Assembly: GCA_905234865.1 (NCBI GenBank)
Contig: CAJOJE010000002.1
Span: 62,001 to 126,000, forward strand
Source: Candidatus Gastranaerophilales bacterium
GTDB lineage: Bacteria > Cyanobacteriota > Vampirovibrionia > Gastranaerophilales > Gastranaerophilaceae
Direction: 5' to 3'
Length of the DNA: 64,000 nt
The position numbers were made by a program, and so were the translations under genes. The notes under the pieces were generated by a model. That model was not told the origin of the DNA and made no database searches. It worked only from the letters and a program-made list of their open reading frames with translations. Below, in pieces: positions 5,323-15,802 of this stretch (positions are counted from its first letter, which is position 1; each line of letters begins with the position of its first letter).

Positions 5323-6243
5323 ATGGAAAACATAAGAAATACTCATATACTAAGAACGGGTTTCAGGCTGGTTTTTATATTAAATATGCTTTTTGAAGGA
5401 GATTATACGAAAAACGAAATCATTGATAAACTCCAAAAAAGTACGGGAATAAAAATTTCCAAGGGAACGCTAAAACTCGATTTAAACACTCTAATCGAAA
5501 CAGGGTGTAATATTATTCATAAAAATCGGGATGAAAATTACAAAATTTCGCTTGCCGATAAACATTTACCCTTCAGGATTTTTAACGGCGAGGATTATGC
5601 AATATTGGATATGGTAAAGAATGTTTCCTTGGATTTTTTGGGCTATAAAGAAATTTTTGCTCTTAAAAAATTTTATCGCAAAATTTCCGATTTTTTCGGC
5701 GAAGAATATGAAAAAATCGCAAATTTTTCATCATACGATTTCATTAACGAAAAAATTTTATGCGAACTCGAAACTGCGATAAAAAAGAAAGTTAAGGGGA
5801 TTATTATTTATGATTCGCCTTCGGGAAAGCAATTTGAGTATAAAGTTTTGCCGGTTGCAATTTTAAAAAGAGGCGGCAAAATTTACGTTGAATGCAACGG
5901 CGAAAAAAACGGAATATTAACATTAAGAGTTGATAATATAAAATCTTTTCAAAAAAACAAAGATTTAAAATTTGATTTACTCGACGGTAAACAAAAAAGA
6001 AAAGTAAGATATAGAGTTAAGAAGAAGTATTTTAAGAACAATTTGCTTGACAATACGGAAAAAATAATCTCGGAGTTTGATGATACTTTTTTAATAGAAA
6101 CAAACGAAAAAGACGACTTTTTCATAGTTCAGAGAATTTTAACGCTGGGCGAAAATTGCACCTGCATTCAAAACGAGAAAATAAAAAACGACGTAATTCA
6201 AGTTTTAAAAGAAACTTTAGGGAAATATCAAAAATGTTCTTAA
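5323..6243 (+). CDS. WYL-domain transcriptional regulator, first of a tandem pair
   Basis: A 306-residue protein. The N-terminal 70 residues look like a winged helix-turn-helix (GDYTKNEIIDKLQKSTG...ISKGTLKLDLNTLIETG). The middle matches the WYL pattern: a beta-rich stretch around residues 155-215 with 'VLPVAILKRGGKIYVECNG' and 'LRVDNIKSF'. A WCX-like tail follows (DTFLIETNEKDDFFIVQRIL). WYL proteins bind nucleic acid or nucleotide ligands and often control DNA-damage or defence genes. It overlaps the next WYL-like gene by 10 bases, recalling the PafB-PafC tandem of actinobacteria. No ribosome site is obvious. A weak -10-like TATTTT (5310-5315) sits 7 bases before the ATG. Confidence 0.7.
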   Translation: MENIRNTHILRTGFRLVFILNMLFEGDYTKNEIIDKLQKSTGIKISKGTLKLDLNTLIETGCNIIHKNRDENYKISLADKHLPFRIFNGEDYAILDMVKNVSLDFLGYKEIFALKKFYRKISDFFGEEYEKIANFSSYDFINEKILCELETAIKKKVKGIIIYDSPSGKQFEYKVLPVAILKRGGKIYVECNGEKNGILTLRVDNIKSFQKNKDLKFDLLDGKQKRKVRYRVKKKYFKNNLLDNTEKIISEFDDTFLIETNEKDDFFIVQRILTLGENCTCIQNEKIKNDVIQVLKETLGKYQKCS

Positions 6244-7115
6244 ATTCGGGTTTAAAAATTTTTGATATTATTGATTTGCTTTTTAGAAACCCTCAAAGCA
6301 GAAAAGATTTATCCCGTATGCTCCAAAACAAAAATACGGACATTGATTTTTTAACGGTCACAAAATATATAAGAACTTTGAGGGCGCTTTCTTTTGATAT
6401 TAAATACATAAATAAAAAGCTGTACATTTTTGACACACCGTTTGAAATCACTCTTGAAAAAGACGAATTAAAAGGTTTTTTAGTATTTTTATCGGTTTTA
6501 GATAAAATTTATAAACAAACTTCAAACAGGGAAGTTTTGTACACCAAAAGCAAAATGATAAAATTCATAAAAGATAAGGTTAAAGTTAATGAACGCCTGT
6601 TAAGCATAGACTTTAAGCCTTCCGATATCACAAATAAGCATTTGTTAAAACTTATGAAATTTGAAAAGGAAAACACAGAAAAAATAAAAGTAAAATTAAA
6701 AGGCAATAAATCTTATGTATCAATTCTTTATAAAGGCTTAAAATTTAAACGGGACGGGATTTTCATTACGGGAATAAGTTTAAAAAATTATAAAAATAAA
6801 ATTTTCAAACTTGATAAAACGGAAAAAATAAAGCCTCTTTACGATAATGAAAAATTCACCGTTCAGCCTTTTTACGATACCGTTTTCAAACTTACGGGCA
6901 GACTTATTAAAAATTACACTTTGAAAAAAGGTGAAAAAGCAAGGTACAGAACGGGAGAAATTCTTATTACAAGCAGATTTGAGGACAAAGAAGAATTGTT
7001 TTCAAGATTGTTGAAATACGGAAATTATTGCGAAATCGTATATCCTGAAGACGACATCAGAAAATTCTCGAATAAAGCAAAAAAATTACTTAAACAGTAT
7101 GAATTAATGCAATAA
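6234..7115 (+). CDS. WYL-like transcriptional regulator, second of a tandem pair
   Basis: I start this 293-residue protein at ATG 6234, inside the last codons of the upstream gene. A longer reading from 6156 would add 26 basic residues that only mirror the other frame. The N-terminus has a helix-turn-helix pattern (FDIIDLLFRNPQSRKDLSRML), the middle a divergent WYL-like beta region (YVSILYKGLKFKRDGIFITG), and the tail a WCX-like region (GEILITSRFEDKEELFSRLL). It probably acts as a heterodimer with its upstream neighbour, an inference from the overlapping tandem arrangement. It is more divergent from canonical WYL than the first copy. It runs head-on into the TPR gene at 7117. Confidence 0.65.
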   Translation: MFLNSGLKIFDIIDLLFRNPQSRKDLSRMLQNKNTDIDFLTVTKYIRTLRALSFDIKYINKKLYIFDTPFEITLEKDELKGFLVFLSVLDKIYKQTSNREVLYTKSKMIKFIKDKVKVNERLLSIDFKPSDITNKHLLKLMKFEKENTEKIKVKLKGNKSYVSILYKGLKFKRDGIFITGISLKNYKNKIFKLDKTEKIKPLYDNEKFTVQPFYDTVFKLTGRLIKNYTLKKGEKARYRTGEILITSRFEDKEELFSRLLKYGNYCEIVYPEDDIRKFSNKAKKLLKQYELMQ

Positions 7116-7116
7116 A

Positions 7117-7842
7117 TTATAATTCAATATAATTATCCATAATAATATTCATTAATTCTTTATCATTCGGGTTTGCCTGATATGCCATTTTATAGTAATC
7201 AAACGCCAAATCCCTGTCATCGAGAATTTCCAATATTTTTGCTATATTATAATAAGCATCGGCGCAATAGGGGTTAATTTGAGTCGTATAGAGGTATTCA
7301 TCAACCGCCTCTTTAAATTTTGCCATTTGCCTTAAAATATCGCCCTTTAAAAAATGTCCCAGCGCATAATCAGGGTCAATATCGACTGCTTTTTGCGCAG
7401 CTTGAAGCGCTTCCGTTAATTTATTTTCTTTTTTAAGCTGAATTGAATAAGCAAACAAAAGTTCTCTGTTGTTCGGGTCTTTTTGGATTAAATATTCAAT
7501 CGTATTCATTGAATTGTCCTTACCCTCAACACTTCCCACGCCGAGGGAAACTTCATATTCCAAAGGCGCCGATACATAATTTGTTCTTAAAACTTTATTC
7601 GGAACATTTGCTCCCACATCCAAAACAAAATCATCGTCAGATAAAATATCAATATTTTTAAGCTCAATGGAATAATTTAAGTCAACAAAATCTTTTTCGA
7701 TTTTTGGCAATTTTTGAACAAAATTCTGCACGTCTTGATTGTCGCTTTTATTAACGTCAACCGAAATTCCCGCATTGATTGTTTGTCCGAAAGCGCTTAG
7801 GGGAATTAAAAAAACCAATAATAACAATACTTTCTTAAACAT
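7117..7842 (-). CDS. Secreted TPR-repeat protein
   Basis: A 241-residue protein with a signal peptide (MFKKVLLLLVFLIPLSAFGQ, cleavage near residue 20) and at least three TPR units in the C-terminal half (for example PNNRELLFAYSIQLKKENK, PDYALGHFLKGDILRQMAK and PYCADAYYNIAKILEILDD). TPRs mediate protein-protein contacts, here in the periplasm or on the outer membrane. It begins one base after the stop codon of the HD-domain gene, so it is the last gene of the minus-strand chemosensory transcript (MCP, CheA, HD, TPR). That position suggests a scaffolding or output role for the same pathway. No enzyme motif is seen. Confidence 0.75.
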   Translation of the reverse strand: MFKKVLLLLVFLIPLSAFGQTINAGISVDVNKSDNQDVQNFVQKLPKIEKDFVDLNYSIELKNIDILSDDDFVLDVGANVPNKVLRTNYVSAPLEYEVSLGVGSVEGKDNSMNTIEYLIQKDPNNRELLFAYSIQLKKENKLTEALQAAQKAVDIDPDYALGHFLKGDILRQMAKFKEAVDEYLYTTQINPYCADAYYNIAKILEILDDRDLAFDYYKMAYQANPNDKELMNIIMDNYIEL

Positions 7843-8439
7843 TTAGCCTCTTTTAAATTTAACTTCTACGGAAAAAACTTTTTCTAAAAAGTCGGTTTTC
7901 CGTACCATTCCATTAACAAGTTCTTCATCAATCATTATATTTGGAGGAAATTCAAATGTCAAAATTTTACCCGAAAAATCATACTCCGTAATGAAATCCT
8001 CAACCAATCCCAAATGACGATTGTCCATAGAATCCGCAAGTCTTATAATCGAAGCCAAACAATCGGTTTTTCTTTTATCTTCGTCGTTTAGGGAATTATA
8101 AAGTTTATGCTTTTTATCAGGCAGGCTTTTTCTGTGATATCTTATAAGGCAGGCCAAAACTTTTATATCTTTTTCGTCTATTTCATCGGGCTTATTATAT
8201 AAAATGAATTTTGCGCCCGCTTTATGATGAGAAAGATTAAACTTATCTTCAAAATTTATCCCGATATCATGGAGCAAAGCTCCGCACTCTAAAAGTTTTA
8301 AATCGGCTTCGTTATTATATTTTTCAAGTTCTCTAAATATCGGTTTCAGTTTTTGAAAAAGGGTTAGTGCTAAAAATTTCGTATGCAAAAGATGATTTTT
8401 GTTTTTGGAATATTTTTTTACTATTTCATCAACATTCAT
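7843..8439 (-). CDS. HD-domain protein resembling the Ppx/GppA C-terminal domain
   Basis: A 198-residue protein with the HD metal-site pattern: H19 (LLHTKF), then LLHDIG (about residues 55-60), then HHK and RYHRKSLP, and a late 'IIRLADSMDNRHLG'. This order and the RYHRK motif match the HD domain at the C-terminus of exopolyphosphatase/pppGpp phosphohydrolases, here without the ASKHA catalytic half. A nucleotide or polyphosphate phosphohydrolase activity is likely, but the substrate is unknown. It overlaps the CheA gene by 4 bases (ATGA), so the two are translationally coupled. That links it to the chemosensory system. It is not an HD-GYP, since no GYP motif is present. Confidence 0.7.
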   Translation of the reverse strand: MNVDEIVKKYSKNKNHLLHTKFLALTLFQKLKPIFRELEKYNNEADLKLLECGALLHDIGINFEDKFNLSHHKAGAKFILYNKPDEIDEKDIKVLACLIRYHRKSLPDKKHKLYNSLNDEDKRKTDCLASIIRLADSMDNRHLGLVEDFITEYDFSGKILTFEFPPNIMIDEELVNGMVRKTDFLEKVFSVEVKFKRG

Positions 8440-11400
8440 TGATTTTTTCCGTAATTTACATATTTTACGACAAGATTAATAAATAATTTTTGTTCAAACT
8501 TATCTTTTTTAATAAACTCGTCGGCTCCCGCTTCAATGAACATTTCTTTGAGCCCTTCGGGGCGCTCGGCGGAAGTTAAAATAAAAATGGGGATATTTTT
8601 TGTTTTTTCGTTTTGTTTCAACATTTGAACAAATTCATATCCGCTCACTTCAGGCATTTCATAATCAGACACGATAAGGTCGAATTTTTCCGTTTCAATA
8701 ATCCTTATGGCATCTTTTACGTTAGTTTCAACATGTACGTTGTATCCGTTAGACGTTAAGGTATTTCCGACAAGACGCCTTGTCGTAACGGAATCGTCAA
8801 CAACAAGGATTTTATATTTGGAATTGTCTTTCAAGGTTAAAGATCTTGTCGTATCAAGTTTGTCAACGGATGTTCTTCCCGAATTTAAAACATCCGAAAC
8901 GTTAAGCAATAGACACATCTCACCGTTTGCGAGAGTTGTAATACCCGATATATTATGAACTCTAAGCATAGGTTCGGGAAGTTTTTTATTTAAAATTTCT
9001 TCATCGCCTATTAGTTTTTGGACAATAACTCCGACTGCGGCGCTTTCCGCTTTTATTACCATAAGAGTATATTTTCCGCTTTTATTATCTTCTTCCCGTT
9101 TTATACCCAAAATTGAAGACAAGGCGCAAATCGGAATAGATTCGCCGTCATAGATAAAGTAATATCTTTCATCTCTTTTTTTAATTTCTTCTTTGGTAAT
9201 CCGAAGTACGGTTTTAATACTTCCTGCGGGAATTGCAAAAAGTTGTCCGCCCTCTTGAAGAATAAACGCTTTCATTGTCGCCATGGTTGTCGGAAGTTCC
9301 ATTGTAACAACGGTTCCTCTGTTTTCTTCCGAAAAAACGTCAACTCTGCCGTTTAATTGAGATATTTTACTGTGGACTATATCAAGCCCCAAGCCCCTTC
9401 CCGATAATTCCGTAACGGAATCGCCCGTTGAAAAACCGGGATAAAAAATAAAGTTTGCAAGTTGTTCTTTCGACATTGTATCGGCGGCTTCAGGCGAAAC
9501 AAGCCCTTTTTCAATTGCTTTTGTTTTAATTTTTTCAATATTTATGCCCCTGCCGTCATCCTTTATGCTGATTATGATTTTATTTTCTCTTTGACTTGCC
9601 TGCAGAGTAATTTGTCCTACTTTATTTTTTCCGATACGTTCTCTTTCTCTGGGCATTTCAATACCATGGGCAATAGAATTTCTAACGACATGCATAATCG
9701 GAATTTTTATATCTTCAATAATTTTTTTATCGGCTGAAACCTCTCCGCCTTCTATAACAAGCTCAATTTCCTTGCCCTTTTCTTTGGAGATATTGTGTAC
9801 CATTCTCGGAAACAAATTAAAAACATTGGAAAGAGGCAAAACACGCATTGTTTTAACCATGTTTTCAATTTCGGAGGTTGTGGAATTAAGTTTTATGTTA
9901 TTTTCTTGAAGCTCTTTCATTAAAAGCCCCAAATCACTTAAAATATACCCTAATTTTTCGGCGTTGGCGTTATGAAAAGCCATAAGCTGCTTATTATAAG
10001 ACACAAGAGAGTCTTTTTTCCCTGCTTGAGTTTCATCAATCGCCGTTTTATTTTCCTGAATATATTTTTTTTCGTAAAATTTCATATAATAGCCGATTTT
10101 ATGGTAATGTTTTTGCAATTCCATAAGTTCATCCTGAATTGTTTTTACCATACCGACATTTTCATGGGATTTGATTCTGGCAACAATTAAATTTCCTATT
10201 TGATTAAGAAGTTTGTCGAGTTTATCGGAATTAACCCTTAAAGTTTTTATTGACGACGTATCAAAACTTTGCGCCCAGTCTACGGGTTTTGTCGACTTTT
10301 GAGTTTTTGTGCGATGATTGGGATTTTCAAGCTCATATTTAACCATTTGGGCAATTATGCTTGCTTTTTGGTTAATCATGTCGATTTCATCCATTGAATC
10401 GGAGTATGTATCTTTTGAAAATTTTGTTTCGACAATTCCTGCGGTACCCACAAAAATTTCTTTAATCGCTTCGATTGAATCAAGCTCGAGTTTAATGTTA
10501 CTTTTTTCAAAACCCAAAATTATGGTTAATATTGTCTGAAAAGTTTTTTTAAGTCCGTCACTTTGGAGTCTTGAAACTATTTCATTTAAAAGGCTTTTTA
10601 ACTCTGCAAGGGAATGTTTGTTTTTATTAATATCAACAATAGTTTCGGTTGCTTTATTTATTAAATCCAAAAGCTCAACACTCTTAAAACGGGAGTCTTG
10701 TTCGGTAATTTCCGTTTTAGCATAATCTTCACTTTCGTTTTCAAGATTATCTTCGTTATCATTATCCGCATCATAGGAAATTTGGAAACTGTTGTCGTAA
10801 TAATCGTTTTTGGTGTCATATCCTTCTTTTTTGGCAAAATCTTTAAATTGATGAATGAAAGAATTTATTTTATCGTTAAAATTAACGAGTTTTTCTTCGT
10901 TGTTATCCGTATCGTTTTCTAAGTCTTTTGAAATTTCCGATACAACTTTTAAGCATTCCCTTAATTTCTCGAAGTTTTCGAGTTTTTCCGTTTTTTGAAG
11001 AATACTTTCGGCGTTTTTTCTTATGAGTGCAAAATTTTTATAATCCCTCTCTTGAAGCGCTTTTGAATACAAAATTGCCATTTGCACAACCATATCATCA
11101 ATTTTTGAAAAATTAATTTTGGGTTTTTTTTGTTCTTCTTCGTTATTTTTTTTGGGCTTTTCTTCTTTTACCATATTTGCCCAAGAAGGATTTTCGGGGG
11201 ATTTGCAAATTTCATCGAGCATTGCCGTATATTTTGCGGTGTCTTCGCTTATATATTCTTCCTTTTGGTCAATCGTATTTTTAATAAGCATATCAATATG
11301 GGATAAAACCGCAGAAATAGCATCGGTCACGTTTGATGTGGCAAGAAGCTTTTCTTCTCTTATAAGCCCCAAAACATCTTCGACTTTATGCGCAATGTTT

Positions 11401-11597
11401 TGTATGCCCTCAAAGCCGAGCATTCTGGCTGAACCTTTGAGGCTGTGCGCATCTCTAAAAAGATGCATGGCAACATCAAGGTTTTTAGGCTTTTTTTCAA
11501 GCAAGAGCAGGTTTTTATCCATTGATTGTAAAATTTCAGTGGACTCTTGAGAAAAAATATTTAAAATTTCATCCAGTTCTTCTTGAAGAAACTCCAT
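8436..11597 (-). CDS. CheA-type hybrid histidine kinase with C-terminal receiver
   Basis: A 1053-residue kinase. An N-terminal HPt domain carries the phosphorylatable His51 in 'AHSLKGSARMLGF'. A long acidic linker follows (about 130-430). The dimerisation region (about 445-600) is followed by a Bergerat ATPase with the N-box HVVRNSIAHG, DDGRG and GRGLGLD motifs, then a CheW-like domain and a C-terminal receiver (VVDDSVTTRRLV, acceptor Asp in LIVSDYEMP). This CheA-REC architecture occurs in WspE, ChpA and FrzE type systems rather than simple flagellar ones. It would phosphorylate its own receiver and the REC-GGDEF protein encoded divergently at 12768. The MCP gene lies 16 bases upstream, and the HD gene overlaps downstream. 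Confidence 0.9.
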   Translation of the reverse strand: MEFLQEELDEILNIFSQESTEILQSMDKNLLLLEKKPKNLDVAMHLFRDAHSLKGSARMLGFEGIQNIAHKVEDVLGLIREEKLLATSNVTDAISAVLSHIDMLIKNTIDQKEEYISEDTAKYTAMLDEICKSPENPSWANMVKEEKPKKNNEEEQKKPKINFSKIDDMVVQMAILYSKALQERDYKNFALIRKNAESILQKTEKLENFEKLRECLKVVSEISKDLENDTDNNEEKLVNFNDKINSFIHQFKDFAKKEGYDTKNDYYDNSFQISYDADNDNEDNLENESEDYAKTEITEQDSRFKSVELLDLINKATETIVDINKNKHSLAELKSLLNEIVSRLQSDGLKKTFQTILTIILGFEKSNIKLELDSIEAIKEIFVGTAGIVETKFSKDTYSDSMDEIDMINQKASIIAQMVKYELENPNHRTKTQKSTKPVDWAQSFDTSSIKTLRVNSDKLDKLLNQIGNLIVARIKSHENVGMVKTIQDELMELQKHYHKIGYYMKFYEKKYIQENKTAIDETQAGKKDSLVSYNKQLMAFHNANAEKLGYILSDLGLLMKELQENNIKLNSTTSEIENMVKTMRVLPLSNVFNLFPRMVHNISKEKGKEIELVIEGGEVSADKKIIEDIKIPIMHVVRNSIAHGIEMPRERERIGKNKVGQITLQASQRENKIIISIKDDGRGINIEKIKTKAIEKGLVSPEAADTMSKEQLANFIFYPGFSTGDSVTELSGRGLGLDIVHSKISQLNGRVDVFSEENRGTVVTMELPTTMATMKAFILQEGGQLFAIPAGSIKTVLRITKEEIKKRDERYYFIYDGESIPICALSSILGIKREEDNKSGKYTLMVIKAESAAVGVIVQKLIGDEEILNKKLPEPMLRVHNISGITTLANGEMCLLLNVSDVLNSGRTSVDKLDTTRSLTLKDNSKYKILVVDDSVTTRRLVGNTLTSNGYNVHVETNVKDAIRIIETEKFDLIVSDYEMPEVSGYEFVQMLKQNEKTKNIPIFILTSAERPEGLKEMFIEAGADEFIKKDKFEQKLFINLVVKYVNYGKNQ

Positions 11598-11613
11598 AAT
11601 TGATTACCTGACC

Positions 11614-12705
11614 TTAATCACCCGTTATTACCGTTTTAAAACCTCTTGTAATTTCGCTTATGTTTTCTAATTTTTTAGCACTTTCTTCAAGAGTTTTATC
11701 CGTTACTTCAAGGGTATTGTTTAAATCTTTAAGGAATATATCGGCTTTTTCGGTGCTTCTGTTAATTTTTTGGGATACGTTTTCAATATCCGAGGTTTTG
11801 GTTGAAATTTCACTTATAATTTCAATTAATTCTTCAACGTTTGAACCTATCGAATGAGCAAGGTCAATCCCCGATTCGATTTCTTTTGTTCCTTCTTCGG
11901 TTGCAATAACCGTAGAATTTGTTGTTTGCTGAATATCCGTAATTAAAGACGTGATTTTTGTCGTTGCCTGTTTTGATTCATCCGCAAGTTTTCTGATTTC
12001 ACCCGCAACAACGGCAAAGCCCTTACCGTGCTCACCTGCTCTTGCAGCTTCAACCGCAGCATTTAAGGCAAGAAGGTTTGTTTGTTCCGCTATATCTTCA
12101 ACCGTTCCGATTGTAGATGAAATTGATTGAATAAACTCGGATAATTCAAGAATTAATTCGGCAATTGTTTGAATTTTATGTCTTATTGCAAACATTTTCT
12201 CAATATTTGCTTTTACGGCGGAATGTTCTTCGTTTGTTTTATCCAAAGAATACGAAGTTTGGTTTCTGGTATCGGTTATAATTTTATTTAAAAGGTCAAA
12301 ATGTTCTTTTAAATCAGCCACAAGGTTATCGGCATTTTTCAATTTTTTAAAAGAATCTTTCAGAGCGTCTTTTTGTTCTTTTGAAAGATTTTCTACGTTT
12401 TTTGCTTCAACGTCCGCATATTCTACGGAAGATACAATGATTTTTTTTAAACGTTTTCGGAAATGTTCTTTTGAAATATTAATATAGAATAATATAAGCC
12501 CCGAAAAACAAAGCCAAAAGAAAAACGCAAGCATAACCATACCTTGTCCCGCATTTTCCATTGAAGTTGCCTTTGCGGATGCGAACCAGCCGATTAACAT
12601 AGCGCCTGCAAGCATAGCCACGCCCCAAACGATGTAATAGTTCATTTGGCTGTCTATGAGTTGATTAACCGAAGTTCCCTTATATTCTTGATTTTCGTTT
12701 AACAT
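11614..12705 (-). CDS. Methyl-accepting chemotaxis protein without a periplasmic sensor domain
   Basis: A 363-residue receptor. Two membrane helices (about residues 24-46 and 58-80) are joined by only about 12 residues, so there is no room for an extracellular ligand domain. The cytoplasmic coiled coil contains the canonical hairpin tip ([39 protein letters not shown]). No HAMP domain or C-terminal CheR-docking pentapeptide is evident. It is the first gene of the minus-strand operon, with a GGGG ribosome site 4-7 bases before ATG. It likely senses a membrane or cytoplasmic state and feeds the neighbouring CheA hybrid through the double-CheW adaptor. Confidence 0.9.
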
Positions 12706-12767
12706 ATTTCCCCTTTTTTAAAATTATTGTATAATAACTATTATTATTATATAAAATTTATTGGAAT

Positions 12768-14216
12768 ATGGCAAAAAAAGTACTGATTATTGATGACTCG
12801 GCAACACAATTATCGAGTTTAAAAATATTTTTCAAAAGAGAAGGGTTTGACGTTGCAACCGCCCATAACGGAGTAGAGGGGTATATAAAAGTATATAAAG
12901 AAACTCCCGATTTAATATTATCAGATGTTCTTATGCCGCATTTGGGCGGATATCAACTTTGCAGATTGTTAAAAAGTAATAAAGAAACCAAAGATATTCC
13001 CTTTATTATGCTTACCGTTCTTGACAAAAACTTAGATAAATTTTGGGGAACTCAATCGGGGGCAGACGTTTTTTTAAGAAAAGATTTTGATATGAAGCTA
13101 ATCGTAAACACTTCAAAGGAAATCATGGAAAAAATGCCCGTTTCCGACATTATTAAACAAGAACTTTTAAGCTATGAAATTGACGAAAACGACATTATGT
13201 CCGAAGTCAACAAAATTCTTGACGAAGAATTAATGAAAACAACCATTACAAATAAATTCAGGGAATTAACCGATTACACAAAAGACGATTATGCCCTTGC
13301 AAAAGATATCTACGATATTTTATCCGCAATCTCCGATTATGATGCGGCTTGCATTTATTTTAATTCTCCCGATTCAACGGCAAAAAAAAGGTTAATTCTC
13401 CATGAACAAAATGTTTCTTTGTCGGACGATTTAATTTTAAAACTTTGGCAGAAAATTTTTCATGCATCCGTTAACAAAAACGATTTTACCCCCGAAAAAA
13501 TCACAAACGAAGGCGATTTAGCTCCGCTTAATTCTCTTGATGATTTTGAATCGTATAAAGAAATTGACTTTTATTATAATGATATTCTGACCGGAAAATT
13601 ATGCCTTTATTCAAGAGAAAATTTAAAATGGAATAAAATGAAATTTATCCACACCATACAATCGGAACTTGATTTGTTTTTGAAGGTTAAATATCTTTAC
13701 ACAAAAACCCGCTATTTATCAATAACGGACGAACTTACGAGCCTTTATACAAGACGGCATTTAAAATCCGTATTATCGCAAGAATTCGCTCGTGCAAAAA
13801 GATACAGAACAACAATTACCGTTGCGATGGTCGATATTGACGATTTCAAAAAAATAAACGACGTGTACGGTCATCTTGCGGGCGATTATATTTTAAAAGA
13901 AGTTTCCAAAGCATTCATAACGACTTTAAGAAAAACCGACTTTGTATACAGATACGGCGGAGAAGAAATTTGTATTTTAATGCCCGAAACAACTCTGGAA
14001 AAAGCGTTTATTCCTCTTGAAAGACTTAGAGCCGCAATTGACGGGGCACATTACATATTTGAAGGAAAGAAAATCCATGTTACGGTAAGTATCGGAGCTG
14101 CCATGTTTAATCAAGATTTAAACAGCGGCGAAGAACTGATTGAAAGAGCCGACAGCAGACTCTATGAAGCCAAAAAAACAGGCAAAAACAAGGTGGTAAT
14201 TAAAAACAATGAATAA
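12768..14216 (+). CDS. Response regulator with GGDEF diguanylate cyclase output
   Basis: A 482-residue protein. The N-terminal receiver has the acidic pair D9/D10, phospho-acceptor Asp53 (LILSDVLMP) and the conserved Lys in FLRKDF. A middle region (about 130-320) of GAF-like size is not clearly assignable. The C-terminal GGDEF domain has the active-site variant GGEEI preceded five residues earlier by RKTD, an intact RxxD inhibitory site. It should make c-di-GMP when phosphorylated by the CheA hybrid and be feedback inhibited. It resembles WspR/PleD-type outputs. It is divergent from the MCP-CheA operon and overlaps the double-CheW gene by 8 bases. AT-rich sequence with TATAAT-like hexamers fills the 62-base divergent region. 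Confidence 0.9.
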   Translation: MAKKVLIIDDSATQLSSLKIFFKREGFDVATAHNGVEGYIKVYKETPDLILSDVLMPHLGGYQLCRLLKSNKETKDIPFIMLTVLDKNLDKFWGTQSGADVFLRKDFDMKLIVNTSKEIMEKMPVSDIIKQELLSYEIDENDIMSEVNKILDEELMKTTITNKFRELTDYTKDDYALAKDIYDILSAISDYDAACIYFNSPDSTAKKRLILHEQNVSLSDDLILKLWQKIFHASVNKNDFTPEKITNEGDLAPLNSLDDFESYKEIDFYYNDILTGKLCLYSRENLKWNKMKFIHTIQSELDLFLKVKYLYTKTRYLSITDELTSLYTRRHLKSVLSQEFARAKRYRTTITVAMVDIDDFKKINDVYGHLAGDYILKEVSKAFITTLRKTDFVYRYGGEEICILMPETTLEKAFIPLERLRAAIDGAHYIFEGKKIHVTVSIGAAMFNQDLNSGEELIERADSRLYEAKKTGKNKVVIKNNE

Positions 14217-15216
14217 TTCACCCGTTACGGTTAATGAAGAAAGTTATATATTTTTTTCAATCGGGGCGTATAATTACGCTTTTAATTCAAAGTACGTTCT
14301 TGACATTATGCAGCTTGTCGAATTGGAATACCCCGAATCCTTGCCCGATTTTATAGTGGGACTTCTTGAATATAATAACAGGATTATTAAAATTGTTGAT
14401 ATCAGAACTATTTTAAAACTTTCAACAGAACCCTATACTTTAAATGCAAAAATTATTATCGTTAAAACGGAAAATGACTTTTTCGGAATAATTATCGATA
14501 ACGTTCGTGAAATAAGAAGAATAAATACGTCTTTATTGAATTTACCGCCGTATCAAACCAAAAATTCATACCTTGAAGCAATTTACACCGATAAAGACAC
14601 TTCAACTACCGTAATCAATCTTGAAAATATCGAAGCAAGCATAAATTCAAGAGAAGAATTTCAGGAAACTTCCAAAAATTCGGCTTCTTTGTTTTTGCCT
14701 AGAGATGTATCTTCAAAAGAAACTCTCCACAGAAGAAGGCTTCATTACGCAAGAAAAATGCGTCAAGAAAATTATGCAATCATAAAAAGCCAAGATACAT
14801 ACATAAAATTTATGCTTAATAACAATATTTGCTGTATTAAAATTCTGGGTGTCGTCGGATTTTATAAATTTGAAAGCGTAAAAGTAACCAAAGTTCCCTG
14901 TACTCCCGATTTTATCGTGGGTATCGTAAGTTTAAAAGGGCGCTACATAACGGTCATCGACCTTTTAAAATATACGGAAAATAAGCATTCCGTCATAACA
15001 AAAGATACAAGCATTATTGTTGTGGAACATGAAGATTATCAACTGGGAATTTTGGCGGATTCTATCTGCGAAACTATGGATATCGAAGAAAATCTTTTAA
15101 AATCAAAATCGCAAAATTCAACTTCCTGCCTCGATGAGTGCGTTATAAACGATACGTTATATATGTTTTTGGATACAAAAAAACTTTTTGAAGATGAAAA
15201 ACTTTATGTCAGTTGA
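14209..15216 (+). CDS. Double CheW-domain adaptor protein
   Basis: A 335-residue protein with two CheW folds. The first spans about residues 10-155 (SYIFFSIGAYNYAFNSKYVL...LPDFIVGLLEYNNRIIKIVD). The second spans about 195-330 (YIKFMLNNNICCIKILGVVG...TPDFIVGIVSLKGRYITVID). They are separated by a charged linker (HRRRLHYARKMRQE). CheW couples receptors to CheA, and a two-headed form could bridge two kinase or receptor rings. It overlaps the upstream REC-GGDEF gene by 8 bases, tying the cyclase and adaptor together. The following hypothetical gene starts 31 bases later, so the transcript may continue downstream. Confidence 0.85.
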   Translation: MNNSPVTVNEESYIFFSIGAYNYAFNSKYVLDIMQLVELEYPESLPDFIVGLLEYNNRIIKIVDIRTILKLSTEPYTLNAKIIIVKTENDFFGIIIDNVREIRRINTSLLNLPPYQTKNSYLEAIYTDKDTSTTVINLENIEASINSREEFQETSKNSASLFLPRDVSSKETLHRRRLHYARKMRQENYAIIKSQDTYIKFMLNNNICCIKILGVVGFYKFESVKVTKVPCTPDFIVGIVSLKGRYITVIDLLKYTENKHSVITKDTSIIVVEHEDYQLGILADSICETMDIEENLLKSKSQNSTSCLDECVINDTLYMFLDTKKLFEDEKLYVS

Positions 15217-15247: not shown

Positions 15248-15802
15248 ATGAAGAAAATATTGATTTTATTATTGTTGCTTTTTATAAATCCTTCTTACGG
15301 CGAAGATTTTCAAAAAATCTATGACGGGCTCGAAACTGCCGATTTTGAATTTGTTTTCGGGATTGACCCGTATCAGGCGGAAGAATATACGCAATATATG
15401 TTTTCTCCTTATCCGCTTTTGAGAATAGGGGTGAATTTTATATTCAAAGATATCGTTATTCCTCCGGGGTATTATCTTTTAACGCCGAGAAAATATAACG
15501 GCAAAACTTATCTTCTTTTTAAAGAACAGGGAAAAGTTAAGTACATGATACCCGTTTATAATATTGATATCGTGCCTGAACATTTTTATGAAAAGTACAA
15601 CCCGAAGCCCAAAACGACAAAATGGCAAAAATTTAAAACGGGGGTATCCAATACCGTAGGAACAATGTTCCCGACAAAAACACAAAGAAAACCCGTTCCC
15701 GAATCATATTTAGAAATAAACGATATAGACGGTGATTTTTTTCAAGTTATACTGTATTATGGAGACCATAAGTATTACACAGTTTTTAAACAGGATTCAT
15801 AA
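15248..15802 (+). CDS. Exported hypothetical protein, paralogue of the protein at 30832
   Basis: I start at ATG 15248 (184 aa) because the signal peptide MKKILILLLLLFINPSYGED begins there. The frame is open from 15188, but that would prepend 20 residues before the leader. The mature part has a beta-rich core: 'PLLRIGVNFIFKD...PPGYYLLTPRKYNGKTYLLFK...GKVKYMIPVYNIDIV', then a basic linker and 'PESYLEINDIDGDFFQVILYYG'. The same order of elements is found in the protein at 30832-31425, which lacks a signal peptide. No known family is recognised. The stop overlaps the next start (TAATG), indicating co-translation with 15802-16677. Confidence 0.65.
   Translation: MKKILILLLLLFINPSYGEDFQKIYDGLETADFEFVFGIDPYQAEEYTQYMFSPYPLLRIGVNFIFKDIVIPPGYYLLTPRKYNGKTYLLFKEQGKVKYMIPVYNIDIVPEHFYEKYNPKPKTTKWQKFKTGVSNTVGTMFPTKTQRKPVPESYLEINDIDGDFFQVILYYGDHKYYTVFKQDS

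Follow-up and report, generated by a model that had tools for sequence, protein, structure and literature searches.

A predicted methylation-free chemosensory array with a putative cyclic di-GMP output, conserved across the Gastranaerophilales

We analysed a 64,000-nucleotide stretch (the window; contig CAJOJE010000002.1, positions 62,001 to 126,000) from the genome of a Candidatus Gastranaerophilales bacterium, a non-photosynthetic gut relative of the cyanobacteria. The window contains a compact block of chemosensory genes that encodes a methyl-accepting chemotaxis protein (MCP), a hybrid CheA kinase with a fused receiver (CheA-REC), a fused double CheW and a REC-GGDEF protein. We propose that these genes probably specify a single array, shared across the order, which works without receptor methylation, transfers phosphate from CheA to the REC-GGDEF protein, and has an output in cyclic diguanosine monophosphate (c-di-GMP) that is read by a PilZ protein. 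The source genome is 1.87 Mb in 22 contigs and is 99.6% complete. The features of the block are as follows.

7117-7842, minus strand, TPR protein gene (Pfam TPR)
7843-8439, minus strand, HD-domain protein gene (Pfam)
8436-11597, minus strand, CheA-REC hybrid gene (Pfam)
11614-12705, minus strand, MCP gene (Pfam MCPsignal only)
12706-12767, both strands, divergent promoter region (promoter scan)
12768-14216, plus strand, REC-GGDEF gene (Pfam)
14209-15216, plus strand, fused CheW-CheW gene (Pfam CheW, two stretches)
15248-15802, plus strand, small secreted protein with no family assigned (no Pfam match)

The spacing of the genes is operon-like. In the leftward arm (MCP, CheA-REC, HD, TPR), the TPR and HD genes abut (gap 0), HD and CheA overlap by 4 bp, and CheA and MCP are separated by 16 bp. 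The REC-GGDEF and double CheW genes of the rightward arm overlap by 8 bp, and the two arms lie 62 bp apart. A scan of the window placed a plus-strand -10 element, TATAAT, at 12730-12735 and a minus-strand promoter, TTGCCA-17-TATAAT, at 12774-12746, the -35 element of which overlaps the cyclase start codon. Both divergent TATAAT-like -10 elements are kept across 7 genomes of the genus. The first-pass annotation had described the MCP, CheA-REC, double CheW and REC-GGDEF genes as one block with a single divergent promoter region, and each of these genes was recovered in its place, as were the HD and TPR genes that it had also named.

That annotation had also noted that the block lacks CheR and CheB, and had suggested looking for cheR, cheB and flagellar genes throughout the genome. 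Genome-wide presence and absence were assessed by family searches together with reading of limited regions. The family searches recovered neither CheR (PF01739) nor CheB (PF01339) in the block or in the whole genome, and no flagellin in the genome; the absence noted for the block thus holds genome-wide. With flagellin, CheR and CheB all missing, flagellar chemotaxis or other flagellar control was rejected as a function of the array. The MCP of the block is the sole MCP found by family search of the whole genome, and CheW domains are confined to the CheA and the double CheW of the block, each present once.

The receptor has two transmembrane helices (residues 25-43 and 57-75) joined by a very short loop and followed by a coiled coil whose signalling tip is conserved. 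Pfam recognized only MCPsignal, with no ligand domain and no HAMP detected. The methylation-site consensus occurs in 0 of 33 aligned receptors (the window MCP and 32 orthologues), and a wider scan found no receptor of this class with the consensus, even in genomes having CheR and CheB. In a control set drawn from those clusters of the order that include CheR and CheB, all receptors carry it (5/5, with 2-4 sites each). Because shuffled sequences of the window-MCP class are mostly without the consensus as well, its absence alone is weak evidence, and the argument rests on the difference from the control set. This difference suggests that the array works without receptor methylation, and that the absence is more than gene loss in one genome.

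The CheA protein consists of an Hpt domain (H51), two extra helical bundles, P3, the P4 kinase domain, a CheW-like P5 and a receiver (D978), as assigned by Pfam and a model. Residues H51, N640, D681 and R734, and K1031 of the receiver, are present in 33/33 aligned orthologues, and D978 in 32 of the 33. The two extra bundles (residues 160-430, between P1 and P3) are without the phospho-histidine active-site motif. Only the second resembles P1, and weakly (probability 89%, against 15% for the first); a reading of the two as decayed Hpt domains is tentative. The cyclase comprises a receiver (D53), a helical linker, a GAF/PHY-like middle domain, a GGDEF domain with a GGEE motif and an RxxD I-site (Pfam and model). 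All 25 orthologues keep D53, T83, K105, GGEE and the I-site R388xxD391, and the structure model matches the folds of PleD, WspR, DgcR and a bacteriophytochrome diguanylate cyclase. With the catalytic motif, the receiver aspartate and the I-site all present, the protein is predicted to be an active diguanylate cyclase.

The remaining two genes of the leftward arm appear to be accessory or local. The HD protein resembles domain III of Ppx/GppA (124 bits to exopolyphosphatases in the PDB) and its metal-site residues are kept in 18/18 sequences; the profile match and these residues agree with the earlier description of a protein like the Ppx/GppA tail. Most of the loci lack this gene, which is accessory. 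The TPR protein has a hydrophobic N-terminal signal (residues 1-23) and was found only in the own genus. The suggestion that these two proteins replace CheR and CheB does not stand, given this distribution and that neither resembles a methylation enzyme.

We suggest the following path for the signal. Input would enter through the two transmembrane helices of the sensor-less receptor or through a partner protein, such as the product of 15248-15802. The fused double CheW would tie the receptor to the hybrid CheA, so that the state of the receptor would set autophosphorylation at H51. Phosphate would then pass to the receiver aspartate D53 of the neighbouring REC-GGDEF protein. This cyclase would make c-di-GMP until its I-site stops synthesis, while the CheA-fused receiver would drain phosphate as a sink or feedback element. 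The c-di-GMP may be read by the single PilZ (YcgR-like) protein of the genome, which carries the RxxxR and DxSxxG motifs; pilus ATPases are possible further readers. As other parts for c-di-GMP signalling, the genome holds 8 GGDEF matches and two GGDEF-HD-GYP proteins. It also encodes several ATPases of the T2SSE family, some of them for pili and two with an MshEN domain. The two 24-residue MshEN motifs of PilB appear imperfect by eye, and the PilB MshEN is a possible c-di-GMP reader. The genome has PilB, PilC, PilT and secretin genes outside the cassette, and the array most probably controls type IV pili or attachment rather than flagella.

Searches for CheA in 58 genomes (the source genome and 57 relatives), followed by synteny analysis and extended with a second collection of loci, showed that MCP-CheA divergent from REC-GGDEF and double CheW occurs in the order's families f1 to f7, with further loci in the second collection. 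This recurrence across the order shows that the genes are not neighbours by chance. CheB is absent from 20 of the 29 genomes that hold a window-type CheA at >=90% completeness, and strong matches to CheR occur almost exclusively where CheB is also present. In the clusters that we read, the genomes with CheR and CheB have a separate second che cluster with its own CheA, CheW, MCP, CheR and CheB. Relatives in the genus and the family gave CheR matches of 76-101 bits, which contain a CheR domain according to Pfam. We do not count these as adaptation enzymes of the array, as they are encoded away from che genes; none occurs in the source genome.

In a quick CheA tree with several long branches, the CheAs of the order form one group (SH-aLRT 100) adjoining cyanobacterial and desulfobulbacean rows. 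The surrounding CheAs come mostly from CheR-CheW-MCP-CheA-CheB-(REC-GGDEF) clusters, and the nearest outside clusters, judged by gene content, are like those of the alternative cellular function (ACF) class. REC-GGDEF adjoins CheA in many related ACF clusters too. Fused CheWs also occur at loci L133, L137, L138, L141 and L145, and L141, a cyanobacterial cluster, combines its double CheW with a short MCP and has neither CheR nor CheB nearby. The simplest reading of these sequences is descent from an ACF-like cluster, followed by loss of CheR, CheB and the sensor of the receptor. Gene content and the relationship to ACF clusters support the earlier proposal of chemosensory signalling that has c-di-GMP as its predicted output.

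The match to the Wsp system of Pseudomonas (WspA-F and WspR, of the ACF class), which the first-pass annotation had drawn, stands in part. An MCP, a hybrid CheA-REC, two CheW modules and a REC-GGDEF protein are encoded together and are related to ACF clusters, but the array is without WspC (CheR) and WspF (CheB), and in the quick tree the CheAs of Wsp-type operons form a separate group (SH-aLRT 99) that excludes those of the order. Unlike WspA, the receptor has no periplasmic sensor, HAMP or methylation-site consensus. The CheWs are fused, the cyclase has the extra GAF/PHY-like domain and the gene order is divergent. In Wsp, WspC is a predicted activator and WspF a repressor (PMC8552884), so an array lacking the pair cannot be just a trimmed Wsp, and its control logic is changed. 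The idea of the first-pass annotation that signalling without methylation would act as a switch rather than a gradient sensor is a guess: Synechocystis has neither CheR nor CheB and still senses the direction of light (PMC4758948), and the CheA receiver and the I-site of the cyclase could provide feedback. 'Reduced Wsp-like' is therefore a fair term for the composition, but the system is not Wsp.

The cyclase resembles PleD, WspR and DgcR in its receiver, its GGDEF domain with catalytic and I-site motifs, and its fold. It differs in the middle of the protein: the GAF/PHY-like domain stands where PleD has a second receiver and where a short linker is all that WspR and DgcR contain. Helicobacter pylori also carries out chemosensory signalling without CheR and CheB, using CheV instead and driving flagella; the array has CheA-REC and a predicted c-di-GMP output rather than CheV and flagella. 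The Pix, Pil and Tax systems of Synechocystis contain a CheA-REC hybrid and are tied to PatA/CheY-like regulators and phototaxis. The array has cyanobacterial relatives in the CheA tree, and shares the lack of CheR and CheB with Synechocystis, which nevertheless senses the direction of light (PMC4758948). The GGDEF output and the sensor-less receptor set it apart.

The output has eroded in sister lineages. At four loci the cyclase gene is retained beside MCP, CheA and double CheW with a decayed GGDEF domain that has lost its motif (L110:5479-6912, L111:5427-6854, L112:5466-6866 and L115:5385-6863). The cyclase is missing and the CheA receiver intact at L041, L042, L046, L113 and L114, and at L054, L124, L127, L128, L130 and L135 the cyclase is missing and the receiver is degenerate or deleted. 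Loci L050, L057, L060, L071, L120, L122 and L126 were not scored as cyclase losses, because the double CheW is missing too or the contig ends. On the CheA tree the scored loci belong to four groups or more, and all of them keep the kinase residues. Since the kinase is intact without a working cyclase, another phosphate acceptor must exist in those lineages. All losses of the CheA receiver occur at loci that also lack the cyclase, an association that ties the two together.

Several points weigh against the proposed c-di-GMP array. The additional phosphate acceptor may exist in the source lineage too, in which case c-di-GMP is perhaps not the sole output. The seven other GGDEF matches in the genome could dominate the c-di-GMP pool. 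Decay of the CheA receiver is confined to one clade and counts as one event, and it is conceivable that an unrecognised enzyme methylates the receptor at sites outside the consensus. We consider it unlikely that the main output of CheA is phosphorylation of some other receiver, with the cyclase a dispensable side branch. The repeated loss or decay of the cyclase beside an intact kinase would fit such an arrangement, as would a gene in the source genome for a CheY-like single receiver that lies directly before a gene for an MshEN and T2SSE-domain protein (L102:7882-9633; G000:C7) and is a candidate second phosphate acceptor for the sole CheA. In the own genus, however, the cyclase keeps all its catalytic and inhibitory residues and its place in the divergent operon.

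A cyanobacterially derived Pil/Pix-type system controlling type IV pili, in which c-di-GMP forms one branch, overlaps the proposed array and is a serious possibility, though we would put it somewhat below an even chance. Cyanobacterial clusters, L141 among them, are sister rows to the CheA clade of the order, the pilus genes are in the genome, and Synechocystis offers a precedent for the missing methylation enzymes. Against this, the cassette contains no pil or CheY gene, the supporting tree is quick and long-branched, and pilus control is conjectural. It is very improbable that the array is a genuine Wsp system from which WspC and WspF have recently disappeared, or one with a receptor methylated by the products of genes at other loci. 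The nearest outside CheAs do lie in CheR-CheA-CheB-(REC-GGDEF) clusters and several same-genus genomes have a CheR-domain protein, but these proteins are remote from che genes and missing from the source genome, which lacks CheR and CheB altogether. Moreover, the receptor has neither a WspA-type sensor nor HAMP, and no orthologue has the methylation consensus, even beside genomic CheR and CheB.

Other genes near the cassette and elsewhere in the order were also recorded. Homologues of the 15248-15802 protein, a possible periplasmic partner of the array, adjoin the double CheW in L046 and CheA in L065, and lie beside the cassette in three genera. A tandem, slightly overlapping pair of WYL-type regulator genes (window 5323-7115) is convergent with the TPR gene and conserved beside the cassette in the genus. 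The source genome, without flagellin, has a FliE-FliF-FliH-FlhA operon with a lytic transglycosylase (L097:11603-17802, G000:C5; L098:9679-11130, G000:C3). One FlhA copy (~700 bits) is present in almost every genome of the order that was searched, a second (near 870 bits) is patchy and a soluble FlhA-C-like protein is likewise widespread, which suggests an order-wide export machine rather than a flagellum. Unrelated proteins, including stand-alone CheR-domain methyltransferases, have a common N-terminus of the type M.ISP or M.I...F.G (L190:2294-3043, L191:3207-3950, L193:2151-2912 and L195:2468-3232; further, L097:8821-10077, L098:7675-8898, L102:10380-12776 and L106:6585-7904), possibly an order-wide targeting or export signal.

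Methylation-based adaptation is usually counted in the definition of chemosensory arrays. Methylation-free arrays are already known (Synechocystis, PMC4758948). Our literature search found no description of an MCP-CheA-(REC-GGDEF)-double CheW cassette and no paper naming both Gastranaerophilales and c-di-GMP. Di Rienzi et al. reported gut Melainabacteria without chemotaxis genes (PMC3787301), and a termite species is said to have them (PMC5877343); the former statement needs to be qualified, as it cannot hold for the order at large. We speculate, with more doubt than confidence, that throughout the order the sensor-less, site-less receptor responds to the condition of the membrane itself, be it contact, tension or energisation, and holds c-di-GMP at a set point that involves no memory, and that sister lineages swapped or dropped the output stepwise and kept the kinase core. 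As consensus sites are missing from the receptors order-wide, even where CheR and CheB serve another cluster, the Gastranaerophilales provide a clean natural case in which to ask what an array would do without memory. The series from active cyclase through dead GGDEF and no cyclase to no CheA receiver makes the role of each part testable.

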